Source: Candidatus Poribacteria bacterium (GTDB taxonomy: Bacteria; Poribacteria; WGA-4E; PCPOR2b). From it: 32,196 nt of DNA. The notes below the pieces were generated by a model, which saw nothing but the letters and a program-made list of their open reading frames with translations, had not been told where the DNA came from and searched no databases. Position numbers and translations under genes: made by a program. Shown piece after piece: positions 26,834 through 32,057 of this stretch. The stretch lies in the NCBI GenBank assembly GCA_022822005.1, contig JAJECO010000028.1:1-32196 (forward strand). Direction: 5' to 3'. Position 1 is the first letter of the stretch. Every line of letters begins with the position of its first letter.

Positions 26834-28897
26834 ATGCTGCCTCAAAATCGTCGCCGCAGATCCATTCATGCTTTACTCATTTCGCTGATTGCCTATCTCT
26901 TGATTGCTATAGTGTGGACATTTATGTACTATGAGCAAGATGGAGCCGGGTTTGAGGAGGTAGTAGAAGTTGCACTCCTCGACGAGAAAGACCTTCTCGA
27001 GTCGCGCCGCGAGACGCTTAAACCGCCTCCGCCGAAACGGATCATGGTCCCGAGACAGGTTCAATCGTCAATTGTCCATCAGCCTCAAACAGTCAAGCTA
27101 ACACCCTCGGCAAATCCGATTAGTGAGACTCTCCAACCATCCGAACAACCCCTACTCCACAGCGCCTCCCCCGATCAACTCAATCCCCAAGACCAGCTTC
27201 CTGATGTCACAACGGCGGCGGAACAACTTAATAGCCGTGAAACACGAATTAGTGAGGCGGTTTCAACACGCTTTCAAACAAGCGATGCGGAGGGTGTGAA
27301 AAGCAATCGCCAGCGGGCGAAAGGGAGCGGTAAGGACGGGATCCATGCACTGGAATCTACCGGAACATCAGACATCGGTACGGTTGGTGATCGTCCCGGG
27401 AAGCGTGGTTCAGGTCAGCAAGATGGCTCTGGCACGTCAGACAGCGCCTCCGAGAGCCCCTTTGCTGAGGCTTTGCGTCGCATCGCTGAGCACATCATAG
27501 CCACACGTACAAGAGATCAGGTTGATGTTGTCTTTGTATTGGATACGAGTGCGAGTATGCGGGATAACATTCAGCAGGTTGCGGATAACCTGTTCAGTAT
27601 GACCGATGCGTTTGATGAGATCAATATCGAATATTTTCTTGGTATGACAGAGTTTAGTGTTAGGCACGAGGGGCAGATGCTGAAACGGCGACCGCTTGTG
27701 CCAGATGTCGGGATGCTTCGGTATCAGATGAGAAAAATCCGACTGAGCGGGGATGAGCATGCGCTCGATGCGATGATGGATACCTTCAACTCCATGGAAT
27801 TCCGTTCAAATGCCGATAAGTTTCTCGTGCTAGTAACGGACGAACCCGCCACGACCCAATCGGGGATAGAATTGGATGAGATGCGTCAGAAAGTAATCGA
27901 CGGTTGCGAGTTGAATGAATTGCGTGTCAACGTGCTGGGACATACGGAAAAGTATCAAACACGCCTTGCGGAAGAAACCGGTGGGCTATGGCAAGAGATT
28001 CCCGGCGGACTCAAACAGAGGACTAGTTTGCAGGCTTCACCTACTAGCAAGGGCGGTCTCGTTGAAACCTTCCGTACAATTGCCACCGATATCCGCCGAA
28101 ACGCCGGCGCACTGTTATTCAGCCTTGAGCTCGAATTCCAAGCAGCTTTGGACGACCATGGGGATATTCTCACTCAAAAACTTCGTCGAGAATTTGAAAA
28201 GAACAACGTTGTTCTTTCCGAGGCTTGGCAACTCTCTGAAAGTGCTACTACCTTGGTAAGGTCGCCAGGCGAAATATGGGTAATCGCCGATCATGGCAGC
28301 GGACGGGTCTATACAATTCGGAAAGAGGGAGAGAAGCTCAACGTCTACCGCGGTATCCACCCAGAAGCTTCTGTGCACCAGATAGCGGACATTGTCCTCC
28401 TCCTTGATTATAGCCGTAGCATGGGCGGTAAGTCTGAAACACTAATGCTCGGAATCAGCGCCTTAATTGGGAGGTTGCAGCTTTTGCCGATTGATTATCA
28501 AATAGGACTCATCCGTTTTGCAGAGGCAAAGGATGCCATCAAATCGGTTGACGGTGCAGATGTCATCCAGATGCCGCTCGGAGAAACTGGGATACGGGAC
28601 CTGCTTGCAGATCCCTTCGGTGGGGATGAACATCTTACGGATGCCATTGTGAAAGGGCTACCACAGATTCGCTTTCGTCGCGATGCCAGTCGTTTTATCC
28701 TTGTCTTGACCGACGAGCCAACCACTGGCGTTGTCCCGCCAGAACGCGCAATAGCGGTTTGCCAATCACTAGGCGTGCAGGCGTACGTCATCGGTGTGCC
28801 GGGAAAAGGTGACTTTCAATGGCAACTGGCGAAACAAACCGGCGGTCTGTTTTTCCGAATGCCAAAACACTTGCGCCAAGCCTATCCATACCAGTGA
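26834..28897 (+). CDS. Membrane-anchored protein with TonB-like N-terminus and two VWA domains
   Basis: A 687-residue protein with one membrane segment (residues 11-31, IHALLISLIAYLLIAIVWTF) followed by a Pro-rich TonB-like stretch (KPPPPKRIMVPR, 63-74) and a long low-complexity linker rich in Ser, Gly and Gln (75-210). Two von Willebrand A domains follow. The first has the metal-site motif D237-T-S-A-S and a TDEP strand end at 335-338; the second D525-Y-S-R-S and a matching TDEPTTG near 630. Each VWA domain ends with the same kind of motif, L-A-x-x-T-G-G-L, so the module is internally duplicated. A spacer domain (about 400-510) separates them. VWA domains bind metal and partner proteins; the location is the periplasmic side of the inner membrane. 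ATG at 26834 follows GGGAGG. Placement behind the ABC genes suggests a shared envelope function. Confidence 0.85.
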   Translation: MLPQNRRRRSIHALLISLIAYLLIAIVWTFMYYEQDGAGFEEVVEVALLDEKDLLESRRETLKPPPPKRIMVPRQVQSSIVHQPQTVKLTPSANPISETLQPSEQPLLHSASPDQLNPQDQLPDVTTAAEQLNSRETRISEAVSTRFQTSDAEGVKSNRQRAKGSGKDGIHALESTGTSDIGTVGDRPGKRGSGQQDGSGTSDSASESPFAEALRRIAEHIIATRTRDQVDVVFVLDTSASMRDNIQQVADNLFSMTDAFDEINIEYFLGMTEFSVRHEGQMLKRRPLVPDVGMLRYQMRKIRLSGDEHALDAMMDTFNSMEFRSNADKFLVLVTDEPATTQSGIELDEMRQKVIDGCELNELRVNVLGHTEKYQTRLAEETGGLWQEIPGGLKQRTSLQASPTSKGGLVETFRTIATDIRRNAGALLFSLELEFQAALDDHGDILTQKLRREFEKNNVVLSEAWQLSESATTLVRSPGEIWVIADHGSGRVYTIRKEGEKLNVYRGIHPEASVHQIADIVLLLDYSRSMGGKSETLMLGISALIGRLQLLPIDYQIGLIRFAEAKDAIKSVDGADVIQMPLGETGIRDLLADPFGGDEHLTDAIVKGLPQIRFRRDASRFILVLTDEPTTGVVPPERAIAVCQSLGVQAYVIGVPGKGDFQWQLAKQTGGLFFRMPKHLRQAYPYQ

Positions 28898-28976
28898 CAC
28901 ACGTCCACGGCTAAATCATTACGCCTGTTGTCGCTTTTAAAAAAACACACGGTTGCAAAAAAATCCTTGACAAATG

Positions 28977-29005
28977 AGAATACGCCTGATAAAATTAACA
29001 GTGTT
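28977..29005 (+). promoter_or_regulatory. Sigma-70 promoter of the TetR-family gene
   Basis: TTGACA (28977-28982), 17-base spacer, TAAAAT (29000-29005). A TetR-type palindrome (29000-29022) starts inside the -10 box, which fits autorepression. Confidence 0.82.
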
Positions 29006-29022
29006 AAGTTAAGTTACTATGT
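29000..29022. promoter_or_regulatory. Likely TetR operator, tetR promoter copy
   Basis: TAAAATTAAC, three bases, GTTAAGTTAA: the inner TTAAC-AGT-GTTAA is a perfect dyad, and the right half GTTAAGTTA equals that of the site at 29689-29711. The left half is less conserved. It overlaps the -10 box and presumed start point. Confidence 0.65.
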
Positions 29023-29040
29023 AAATCAAGGGGAAGGGCC

Positions 29041-29646
29041 ATGGGTGTTAAAGAACGGAGAACTAGGGAAAAAGAGCAGTTGCGGCGTCAAATTCTTTCT
29101 GCGGCGCGAGAGCTGTTTGTCAATGAAGGCTATGAGAGCGTTTCTATGCGGAAGATTGCCAATAAGATCGAATATTCACCGACGACGATCTATCTCTATT
29201 TTGAAGACAAGGCGGATCTTTTAGACTCCGTTTGCAAGGAAACCCTTCTGGACCTGTTAAACACGCTTGAACGGCTAAAAGAGGATACCGGCGATCCCGT
29301 CGAGGCTCTAAGGGAGAGTGGAAGAGCTTATGTCGAATTCGGTCTAAAATATCCGCAAGACTACAAGCTGACGTTTGTCATACGTCCTCAGTTCCAGAAA
29401 GGGTTAGGTTTGCAACAAGGATCGGTTGGTGAAAGGGTGTTCAATTACCTGCGTGCAATGGTTTCTGAATGTATTCGACAGAAGGCATTTCGCCAGGTGG
29501 ACGTCGAAACCACTGGTCAGGCACTGTGGTCGGCTGTTCATGGTGTTACATTGCTCCTAATTGATTTTTCGGATTTCCCTTGGACTGAGAAAGACAAATT
29601 GATTGACATGGTAATTGACACGATGATCGATGGCTTGACGGCATAG
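29041..29646 (+). CDS. TetR/AcrR-family transcriptional regulator
   Basis: A 201-residue regulator of standard length. The DNA-binding domain is at residues 12-60: QLRRQILSAARELFVNEGYESVSMRKIANKIEYSPTTIYLYFEDKADLL, with the helix-turn-helix in SMRKIANKIEYSPTTIYLYF. The C-terminal ligand domain (RAYVEFGLKYPQDYKLTFVIRPQ onward) resembles the WHG/TetR_C group, sometimes tied to fatty-acid or solvent stress, but the ligand cannot be read. ATG at 29041 has AAGGGGAAGG upstream. Promoter and operator precede it (28977-29022). A palindrome with the same half-site lies in front of the next gene (29689-29711), so it probably represses both itself and the lipoprotein gene. Confidence 0.92.
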   Translation: MGVKERRTREKEQLRRQILSAARELFVNEGYESVSMRKIANKIEYSPTTIYLYFEDKADLLDSVCKETLLDLLNTLERLKEDTGDPVEALRESGRAYVEFGLKYPQDYKLTFVIRPQFQKGLGLQQGSVGERVFNYLRAMVSECIRQKAFRQVDVETTGQALWSAVHGVTLLLIDFSDFPWTEKDKLIDMVIDTMIDGLTA

Positions 29647-29660
29647 ACTCCAAATTCTTT

Positions 29661-29684
29661 GGCGCAGGCCGCCATATTTTTTTT
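29661..29684 (+). terminator. Possible weak terminator after the TetR gene
   Basis: GGCG (29661-29664) and CGCC (29670-29673) form a short stem, followed by a run of eight T (29677-29684). The stem is short, so termination is uncertain; the T-run merges with the -35-like TTGTCA of the next promoter. Confidence 0.35.
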
Positions 29685-29711
29685 GTCAATAACTTAACGA
29701 TGTTAAGTTAT
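29683..29711 (+). promoter_or_regulatory. Operator palindrome within the lipoprotein gene promoter
   Basis: ATAACTTAAC (29689-29698), GAT, GTTAAGTTAT (29702-29711): a perfect 10-plus-10 palindrome. It directly follows TTGTCA (29683-29688), a good -35; the -10 would fall at AGTTAT (29706-29711) or slightly downstream. Repressor binding here would block RNA polymerase. The start codon of the lipoprotein gene is 44 bases further on. Confidence 0.78.
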
Positions 29712-29754
29712 TTATCTATGTTAATACATAGAAAACCTTGGAGGAAAAGTAAGA

Positions 29755-31413
29755 ATGAAAACGCGAAACCGGTCTTATAGACACTTTCTGGTTACAAAAC
29801 TTAGCTGGATCACTAATCCCGCAAGGTATTATCAACTCAGTTGCTGTTCCGTGCTAATTTCTAGAATATTCCTATCAGGCTGTTCTGGTCTGTTTGGCAT
29901 AGAGTTTGATCCGATGTCGCCCACTGTGCCATTTACTTTCAAGCAGTACGATGTTCTCACCGGTACGGCGAAGCACCAGACCGTTCTGACAGGATTTCTT
30001 CTCGGCGGTTCTACCGCGGAACTTGCCGTGGTAAACGTCGACGCAGAGGATAACCGCCGCCTGCACATCTACGCGTTCGAGTACGACAAGTGGGGGACGG
30101 TACTCGATATAATGTTACATCCCGACGTGTTTTTCGTCGATATTGCGAACATTGGGGGGCGCGACCGCTTGATTATGTACGAGAACGGTTGCCTGAACTG
30201 GTTTGATCCTGAATCTGCAACGGAGCATACATTAGTGACGGTTCTCTCCAACGTGCCACCTCCCCAAGGTGAAATCCCTCACCTCGATGTCACTTGTGAC
30301 GTCAACGACGATAACCGTGACGATCTGGTTGTGCCGGACTCCGATGGTTTCTGGGTATTTATCCAGACGAAGGATGGCGCGTTTGCCGATCCAGTGAAGA
30401 TCGGATCCTCCGTTGAAATAGGTAGGTTCTACGCAGCGGATGGATATCGATACAACCCTTGGGAAAAGGAGGACATCCACGAAATTGATTATAATCGAGA
30501 TGGTCGCAGCGACTTGGTTTTCTGGAACGAAGATCATTTTGTGGTTCATCGCCAAGACGAGCGTGGGTTGTTCTCCTTAGAGACTGAGGTGTTCACGACA
30601 GAGGTATCCTTCGACTCCGACGACCTCGGATCGCTGGTCGCTCCCGATGGGGTTCGTGGCAGACGTTTTGATCATGGTGCACCCGGAGCCATGACGGGAA
30701 GAGTACTGCATGCGTTCACTGACATGAATCATGATGGCATAGCCGATCTCTCAATCTTCTCGTTGCAGGCGGGGAACAGCAGATTCCTTGGACAGACATC
30801 GGAACTTTGGGGTATGCGATCTACCTACGAGGTACATTTCGGCGCGCCGATCGCTGATGGCACTATATTCGCGACAGAAGCGAGTACTACGATCCAATCG
30901 GAGGGCATCCCTTTTGATTTGGGGCAACAGGACTTCGACCGCGACGGTCAGATTGATATGACTTTTGCGGTTATTGATCCGGGGGTCTTCAAAGTCGTGG
31001 GTATGCTGGCTAGAGGGATCCTGACAAAGTCCGCATTGCTGGATCTCCATCTCTACCGCATGGCAGAGGGATCCTACCCGGACGAGCCCGACACTGCCCG
31101 CAGGATTAAAACACACTCTCCCGGCGACTCAGGGAAACAAGCCATGCACTTCCCATCGTTACTATTCGGGGATGTCAACGGCGACGGGCGGTCGGACCTA
31201 CTGGTGCAGCATGGGCAGAAAGAACTTCGCGTCTTTATCGGTGTGCCGGGACCGAATCTGTTTGTACGGAAGCCTCAAAAGGTGGCGGTCGACATGCCCT
31301 ACGAGGAATATACTTGGCTGGTGGACCTCAACAGGGATGGAGTACAGGACGTCCTCATGCACTACCCGTCCACCACTGAATCACATCGACTGACAATGCT
31401 GATCGCTCAATGA
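29755..31413 (+). CDS. Lipoprotein with FG-GAP/calcium-loop repeats
   Basis: A 552-residue protein. The lipobox L-S-G-C (FLSGCSGLFG) with cysteine at residue 43 marks it as a lipoprotein, although the preceding region is unusually long and polar (about 25 residues). Six D-x-N-x-D-G/N-x-x-D-type loops are visible: DVNDDNRDDLVV, DYNRDGRSDLVFW, DMNHDGIADLSIF, DFDRDGQIDMTF, DVNGDGRSDLLVQ and DLNRDGVQDVLM. These FG-GAP/VCBS-like repeats fold into an integrin-type propeller and bind calcium; the role is adhesion or carbohydrate/protein binding outside the cell. ATG at 29755 follows GGAGG by nine bases. The gene is behind a palindrome matching the TetR site. By eye it is somewhat richer in GC than its neighbours; not computed. 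Confidence 0.82.
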   Translation: MKTRNRSYRHFLVTKLSWITNPARYYQLSCCSVLISRIFLSGCSGLFGIEFDPMSPTVPFTFKQYDVLTGTAKHQTVLTGFLLGGSTAELAVVNVDAEDNRRLHIYAFEYDKWGTVLDIMLHPDVFFVDIANIGGRDRLIMYENGCLNWFDPESATEHTLVTVLSNVPPPQGEIPHLDVTCDVNDDNRDDLVVPDSDGFWVFIQTKDGAFADPVKIGSSVEIGRFYAADGYRYNPWEKEDIHEIDYNRDGRSDLVFWNEDHFVVHRQDERGLFSLETEVFTTEVSFDSDDLGSLVAPDGVRGRRFDHGAPGAMTGRVLHAFTDMNHDGIADLSIFSLQAGNSRFLGQTSELWGMRSTYEVHFGAPIADGTIFATEASTTIQSEGIPFDLGQQDFDRDGQIDMTFAVIDPGVFKVVGMLARGILTKSALLDLHLYRMAEGSYPDEPDTARRIKTHSPGDSGKQAMHFPSLLFGDVNGDGRSDLLVQHGQKELRVFIGVPGPNLFVRKPQKVAVDMPYEEYTWLVDLNRDGVQDVLMHYPSTTESHRLTMLIAQ

Positions 31414-31544: not shown

Positions 31545-32057
31545 ATGATACGTTTAATTTGTTGCTTAATCTGTGTTCTTTTGGGACTAACCTTGAGTGC
31601 TTCGGTTCAGGCGCAAGAAACTGACCTCACCAAGAATTTTGGTATTGGGCTTCAGGCGGCTACACCCGCATTTGGCGGAATCAGTTTTCGTTATAGCGGA
31701 TTGGCGCCTGTCTATCTTCAAACTGTTGGTCGTTTTATTCTTAATGATCAGAACAGCGACCACATGTTAGGGGCTGGTGTCTCGTACGCCATAGTCGAAC
31801 ATCAGAACAGGCTGAACGTTGCTCGGCTCTATTTCACGCTAGAAGGTGGTTGGCGCTATCACAAAGAGGAAGCGCTTGAGACAACAACTCTCGCAGCTGG
31901 ACTCGCGTTTGGAGGCGAGCTTGTGTTTTCGCTTGGAGGAATCCCTCTCGGCTTGAATGCCCAGATCGGTCAAGGGTTCGGCAAGGAAAAATCCGATTCT
32001 CAGACCAAGGATCTTGCCGGTGTTTATATCGGAACGGGTATACATGCCTATTTTTAG
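31545..32057 (+). CDS. Small exported, probable outer-membrane beta-barrel protein
   Basis: A 170-residue protein with a signal peptide (LICCLICVLLGLTLSASVQA, cleaved before QETDL). The mature part shows alternating strand patterns (GISFRYSGLAPVYLQTVGRFIL, LYFTLEGGWRYH, LAAGLAFGGELVFSLGGIPLGLNAQIGQGFG) and ends in a final aromatic residue (GVYIGTGIHAYF), which suits an eight-stranded outer-membrane barrel and recognition by BamA. ATG at 31545 follows AAGGAG by seven bases. It is 131 bases after the lipoprotein gene on the same strand and may be cotranscribed with it. No specific function is recognised. Confidence 0.78.
   Translation: MIRLICCLICVLLGLTLSASVQAQETDLTKNFGIGLQAATPAFGGISFRYSGLAPVYLQTVGRFILNDQNSDHMLGAGVSYAIVEHQNRLNVARLYFTLEGGWRYHKEEALETTTLAAGLAFGGELVFSLGGIPLGLNAQIGQGFGKEKSDSQTKDLAGVYIGTGIHAYF

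Follow-up and report, generated by a model that had tools for sequence, protein, structure and literature searches.

A putative two-box TetR operator at the promoters of a regulator gene and a propeller lipoprotein gene in Candidatus Poribacteria

Known TetR systems and layout of the locus

Regulators of the TetR/TetA and AcrR/AcrAB type combine a TetR_N helix-turn-helix with a ligand domain and act through a palindromic operator placed over their own and their target promoters, in a divergent arrangement in which both units share an intergenic operator and the target is an efflux pump. For the dimer-of-dimers regulators QacR, CgmR, Ms6564 and CprB, operators of 22-32 bp have been described (PMC4150764). 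The poribacterial locus analysed here shares with the former type the domain composition and a palindromic, putative operator over the two promoters, whereas regulator and target stand in tandem, each with a site of its own, and the target is a predicted surface propeller-barrel pair. With the latter subclass it shares a long candidate operator, conserved over about 31 bp, which suggests the binding of two dimers; it differs in that two AACA-n-TGTT boxes can be recognised, spaced by exactly 18 bp and in some cases forming a longer series (L152, see below).

The window, that is, the whole stretch of DNA analysed, comprises 32,196 nt and forms contig C70 in a draft genome of 6.0 Mb. From left to right, the locus carries a VWA-domain gene, then tetR with its promoter before it and a candidate terminator behind it, then the palindrome followed by the FG-GAP and small barrel genes. 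The features are as follows:

26834-28897: VWA-domain gene, directly before the tetR promoter
28967-28995, + strand: tetR promoter, -35 TTGACA (28967-28972), 17-bp spacer, -10 TAAAAT (28990-28995)
28991-29011: tetR operator box O1, AAAATTAACAGTGTTAAGTTA, core AACAGTGTT at 28997-29005, overlapping the -10; profile E 1.3e-9
29015-29023: tetR operator box O2, TACTATGTA, 5/8 to AACA-n-TGTT, 18 bp from O1
29041-29646, + strand: tetR, 201-aa TetR-family regulator with TetR_N and TetR_C_33 matches
29660-29682, + strand: candidate intrinsic terminator after tetR, TGGCG-CAGGC-CGCCA followed by a T-run
29689-29711: target operator box O1, ATAACTTAACGATGTTAAGTTAT, perfect palindrome, core AACGATGTT at 29696-29704; profile E 1.6e-8
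29714-29722: target operator box O2, ATCTATGTT, 6/8, 18 bp from O1, overlapping the likely -10 TATGTT
29755-31413, + strand: FG-GAP repeat gene, product with lipobox FLSGC, predicted to fold as a beta-propeller and likely to be a surface lipoprotein
31545-32057, + strand: small 8-stranded outer-membrane beta-barrel gene

The assignment of the regulator to the TetR family is supported by an N-terminal PF00440 TetR_N match (E 3.9e-15, 55.8 bits, cut-off 24) and by a PF13305 TetR_C_33 ligand/dimerisation domain (E 1.9e-10, 41.7 bits, cut-off 26.8). None of the named NCBIfam TetR equivalogs (FadR, FasR, RutR, ScbR, AcrR and others) was matched, the best score being 44.8 bits against a cut-off of 200.

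The presumed target protein matches PF13517 FG-GAP_3 (E 3.9e-15, 56.6 bits, cut-off 26.9) and PF01839 (42.7 bits, cut-off 22.1), and its AF2 model is a propeller of moderate confidence (pLDDT 75.6), with propeller lectins such as 2bwm and 5c9l among the best solved Foldseek matches; a sequence search of the PDB returned weak PVL lectin matches only. The repeated Ca-loop-like Asp motifs and the predicted fold are shared with the PVL (2bwm) and PLL (5c9l) lectins, whereas the poribacterial protein is a predicted lipidated bacterial protein of 11-13% identity, with at most a putative capacity for sugar binding. For the barrel protein, with no match in Pfam or NCBIfam, AF2 models eight strands (pLDDT 86.5), and the best Foldseek hit is OmpX 1qj9 (6.8e-4), a weak match at TM 0.38-0.43. 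Both proteins are therefore likely, by prediction, to be surface-located. The N-terminal stretch of the lipoprotein that precedes the lipobox is unusually long (about 40 residues; 29755-29890), as it is in most relatives. Among relatives, the first propeller copy often carries Tyr in place of the lipobox Cys, e.g. LSGY (L065, L067, L068, L071, L073, L075, L076, L077 and L080), and the copy that follows it, where present, retains Cys; perhaps these are secreted and lipidated forms.

The FG-GAP and barrel genes are likely co-transcribed, and the barrel gene has no operator of its own within the window. The fold of the candidate terminator after tetR is not statistically better than that of shuffled sequences (z -1.25), and a hairpin with a T-run is also present 3' of tetR in relatives. 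On the other side of tetR, the protein encoded at 26834-28897 carries an N-terminal membrane segment as well as two VWA domains; of the loci compared, that of the nearest relative (G003, L059) is the only other one with this gene next to tetR.

Shape of the operator and its promoter context

The original prediction had placed a perfect palindrome before the lipoprotein gene and a degenerate copy over the -10 box of tetR, and both were borne out. Specifically, ATAACTTAAC-GAT-GTTAAGTTAT at 29689-29711 is a perfect palindrome, and the sequence at 28991-29011, a conserved palindromic candidate operator at the regulator's own promoter, differs by 2 mismatches and overlaps the TAAAAT box. Allowing up to 3 mismatches, the window contains 2 matches where 0.01 are expected, a number reached in 0/100 shuffles. 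The genome-wide search recovered the same two places as the sole matches in 6.0 Mb, so that the palindrome is not widespread; the reversed control pattern gave 6 forward and 6 reverse matches over the same genome. No third site was found in the whole 6.0-Mb genome of the window, and the proposed regulon of an FG-GAP lipoprotein and a small barrel is supported for this genome.

By aligning 33 tetR sites and 41 target sites, we found that both promoters have in common a 31-bp element, TTAACAnTGTTAAnTTAwwTnACTATGTwAA, longer than the palindrome first noted. This candidate operator holds two AACA-n-TGTT boxes with centres 18 bp apart, the second copy being the weaker. In three separate sets, namely the sites at tetR, those at the target and those of distant homologues, +18 was the best second offset, with mean box scores of 5.2, 5.9 and 5.6 of 8, respectively, against a background of 2.2-2.4. 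In the distant set, the +18 box was equalled in 0/5000 shuffles.

The distant set comprises 23 TetR homologues, mostly from Clostridia, with about 25-48% protein identity. Within 250 bp upstream of tetR, a perfect AACA-n-TGTT was present in 15 of the 23 (chance about 1% each), and in most of these 15 a second box follows 18 bp on. The core was absent upstream of tetR in L135, L136, L144, L147 and L148, and L133 has its second box at an offset other than +18. The homologues from Clostridia and Acidobacteria (L131-L156) share with the window's TetR not only this upstream arrangement, but also an MG-x-x-ERR N-terminal arm and a KIEYSP-type recognition region.

It is conceivable, but unlikely, that the single palindrome is the whole operator, bound by one dimer, and that the box following it simply belongs to the -10 or the leader. 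In line with this possibility, O2 is degenerate in the window (5/8 at tetR and 6/8 at the target), and TATGTT at the target, which stands 17 bp from TTAACA as a -10 would, could make the target O2 partly a -10 element. At tetR, however, the O2 block lies downstream of the real -10 and is nevertheless kept at the 18-bp offset; it is conserved in relatives, where the -10 is elsewhere, which argues, not conclusively, that the block is not simply a promoter element. In addition, L139, L141, L143, L146 and L156 carry near-perfect +18 copies (7/8), and in L152, a Clostridiales homologue, several AACA-n-TGTT-like boxes are repeated upstream of tetR with an 18-bp period, forming an extended operator. 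Because of the second box at this spacing, which fits the long-operator subclass, we infer two dimers per site: the TetR protein probably binds as a pair of dimers that occupies about 31 bp of DNA.

The promoter scan assigned to tetR a promoter matching the consensus at 11/12 positions, with TG before the -10, and TTGACA and TATAAT/TATACT are kept at tetR in relatives. The palindrome had also been thought to lie between the -35 and -10 of the lipoprotein gene, which is not clearly so: the -35 proposed, TTGTCA, was rejected, being unconserved even in the nearest relative and absent from any promoter found by the scan. The conserved arrangement at the target instead has a -35-like TTAAC(A/G) as part of the palindrome and, after 17 bp, TATGTT as part of the second box; this TTAAC-N17-TATGTT might be the target promoter, a putative assignment that would make it off consensus and weak.

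Likewise, the claim that the stronger site is at the target is unsupported, the measures being in disagreement. While the outer arms are better at the target in 22 of 31 loci (equal in 3, better at tetR in 6), in the window the tetR site matches the AACA-n-TGTT core at 8/8 versus 7/8 for the target site, and its profile score is 40.8 versus 37.3 bits. The poorer left arm of the tetR site is due to the overlap with the -10 box, which constrains it. Therefore, whether the target would be shut off first, as had been proposed, is not readable from the sequence.

The promoter context bears also on the sign of regulation. TetR could repress only itself and activate the lipoprotein operon, or be a two-way regulator, since the target site lies where a weak, off-consensus promoter might need help, and the weak NCBIfam matches, far below cut-off, include the TetR-type activator FasR. 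We regard this as quite improbable: at the target the site extends over the two putative promoter hexamers and is not placed upstream of the -35, at tetR the corresponding box overlaps the -10, and TetR-family regulators with sites over promoter hexamers are mostly repressors.

The regulator and its sites across genomes

The comparison covered 59 poribacterial genomes of the order, including the window's own. A close TetR orthologue is encoded in 34 of them, again counting the window's genome, and the relatives with the same TetR include Candidatus Poribacteria MAGs. Its neighbours are nearly always a small barrel gene and one to three FG-GAP propeller genes in tandem. Over the 29 loci with all three genes, mean identity falls from 86.6% (TetR) through 77.7% (barrel) to 57.8% (propeller), the regulator thus being better conserved than the genes under its presumed control; within TetR, the DNA-binding part is 92% identical on average versus 84% for the rest.

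A site profile was then run over the 59 genomes, with E below 1e-5 defining a strong match. Such matches came from each of the 34 genomes with TetR and from one more, G001. There the locus has decayed, and what is left is a tetR-like fragment, the site and a truncated propeller lipoprotein gene. The other 24 of the 59 genomes gave nothing better than E 0.005. As the profile was trained on part of the scored sites, the positives' scores are partly built in, whereas the absences are not. In 11 TetR-less genomes with an intact propeller-barrel pair the site is absent, the best score being -5.6, where real sites score at least 32.3 and the null reaches at most 10.3. This presence and absence across the 59 genomes supports the earlier proposal that the two sites are one TetR-dependent element shared by regulator and target. 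That the palindromes are instead another regulator's sites or structural repeats, with TetR as a mere neighbour, is very improbable: short AT-rich palindromes can be mobile repeats and G008, without this TetR, has 15 similar sequences, but site and TetR are jointly present or absent in 59 genomes, the sites are gone in TetR-less genomes retaining the target genes, and tetR homologues in other phyla have the same core upstream.

In conclusion, the sites, their uniqueness, conservation and dependence on tetR, and the 18-bp spacing are all seen in the DNA, and at this level the putative two-site TetR switch is real and specific, with good backing from the comparison of genomes.

Further copies and arrangements were observed. 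Most of the additional propeller genes are each preceded by a site, at a distance of some 50-65 bp from the start. A second copy of the locus, with tetR deleted, is present in G030 (L093), and in G040, an assembly without TetR, the contig begins inside an apparent second box and is therefore a truncated case. In genus g6 (L169-L172, L174-L178) the pair occurs without TetR, mostly in the opposite gene order, so that barrel and propeller seem to function jointly, independent of the switch.

Some candidates were set aside. The matches in G022 and G033:C135 are surrounded by proteins unlike those of the cassette and were taken as chance. The 15 TAACTTGACAATGTTAAGTTA-like palindromes of G008, spread across contigs (e.g. 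L096, L097), were tentatively considered a different repeat, there being no orthologous TetR, and are perhaps a mobile or repetitive element. As to a mobile cassette, the flanking genes are common to up to 22 loci and there is no sign of frequent movement there; yet two loci, L060 and L062, have tetR downstream of its targets, propeller and barrel, and there the propeller gene is preceded by a promoter of the tetR type that includes a site.

A further target appears in six genomes (G015, G033, G036, G041, G043 and G055; L160-L165), where a tetR-type promoter and site precede a polysaccharide deacetylase gene (PF01522, 5e-34). In L160 and L165, the start of a decayed tetR lies between promoter and deacetylase gene, which suggests that a deletion joined the tetR promoter to the next gene, a putative promoter capture.

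Proposed mechanism and biological meaning

In view of the two sites, the history they share with tetR and their placement over promoters, this locus most probably, and by a wide margin, encodes an autoregulated repressor of the TetR family with a very small local regulon. On this reading, TetR would bind the two-box operator, i.e. two AACA-n-TGTT cores with centres 18 bp apart, one copy of which would cover the -10 and start region of tetR and the other the promoter of the FG-GAP lipoprotein-barrel operon. As the operator copies cover both promoters, both units would be repressed until a ligand enters the TetR_C_33 domain. Binding, repression rather than activation, the pair of dimers and the ligand are the parts that we infer.

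The distant homologues keep the core but differ in their neighbours, judged from sequence: next to the Clostridium regulators lie what look like flavodoxin, FMN-binding and MFS genes, next to the Bryobacteraceae one an apparent ABC exporter, and next to those of Acidobacteria RND-type efflux genes. Regulator and operator would therefore be of old origin, and Poribacteria seem to have gained or exchanged the target, which is the presumed direction of the change. We found no paper on Poribacteria with FG-GAP proteins, on these operator words with a bacterial TetR, or on a TetR with a propeller lipoprotein in a literature search that took in a minority of subscription papers. Within the literature searched, the switch looks undescribed, ordinary in kind and unusual in target.

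The assignment of a regulator, its operator and its target in an uncultivated phylum comes with a natural control, i.e. where the regulator is missing there is no site. In addition, the operator code of two AACA-n-TGTT boxes at 18 bp should predict the regulons of this TetR subfamily in Clostridia and Acidobacteria. The locus also suggests that sponge-associated bacteria have surface genes controlled by a ligand. More tentatively, Poribacteria may have rewired an ancient TetR-operator module, found beside redox or efflux genes elsewhere, to a diversifying surface set of tandem lectin-like propeller lipoproteins, a barrel and, in some genomes, a polysaccharide deacetylase. If this is true, a sponge-associated bacterium would change its surface in response to a small molecule derived from the host or the community.
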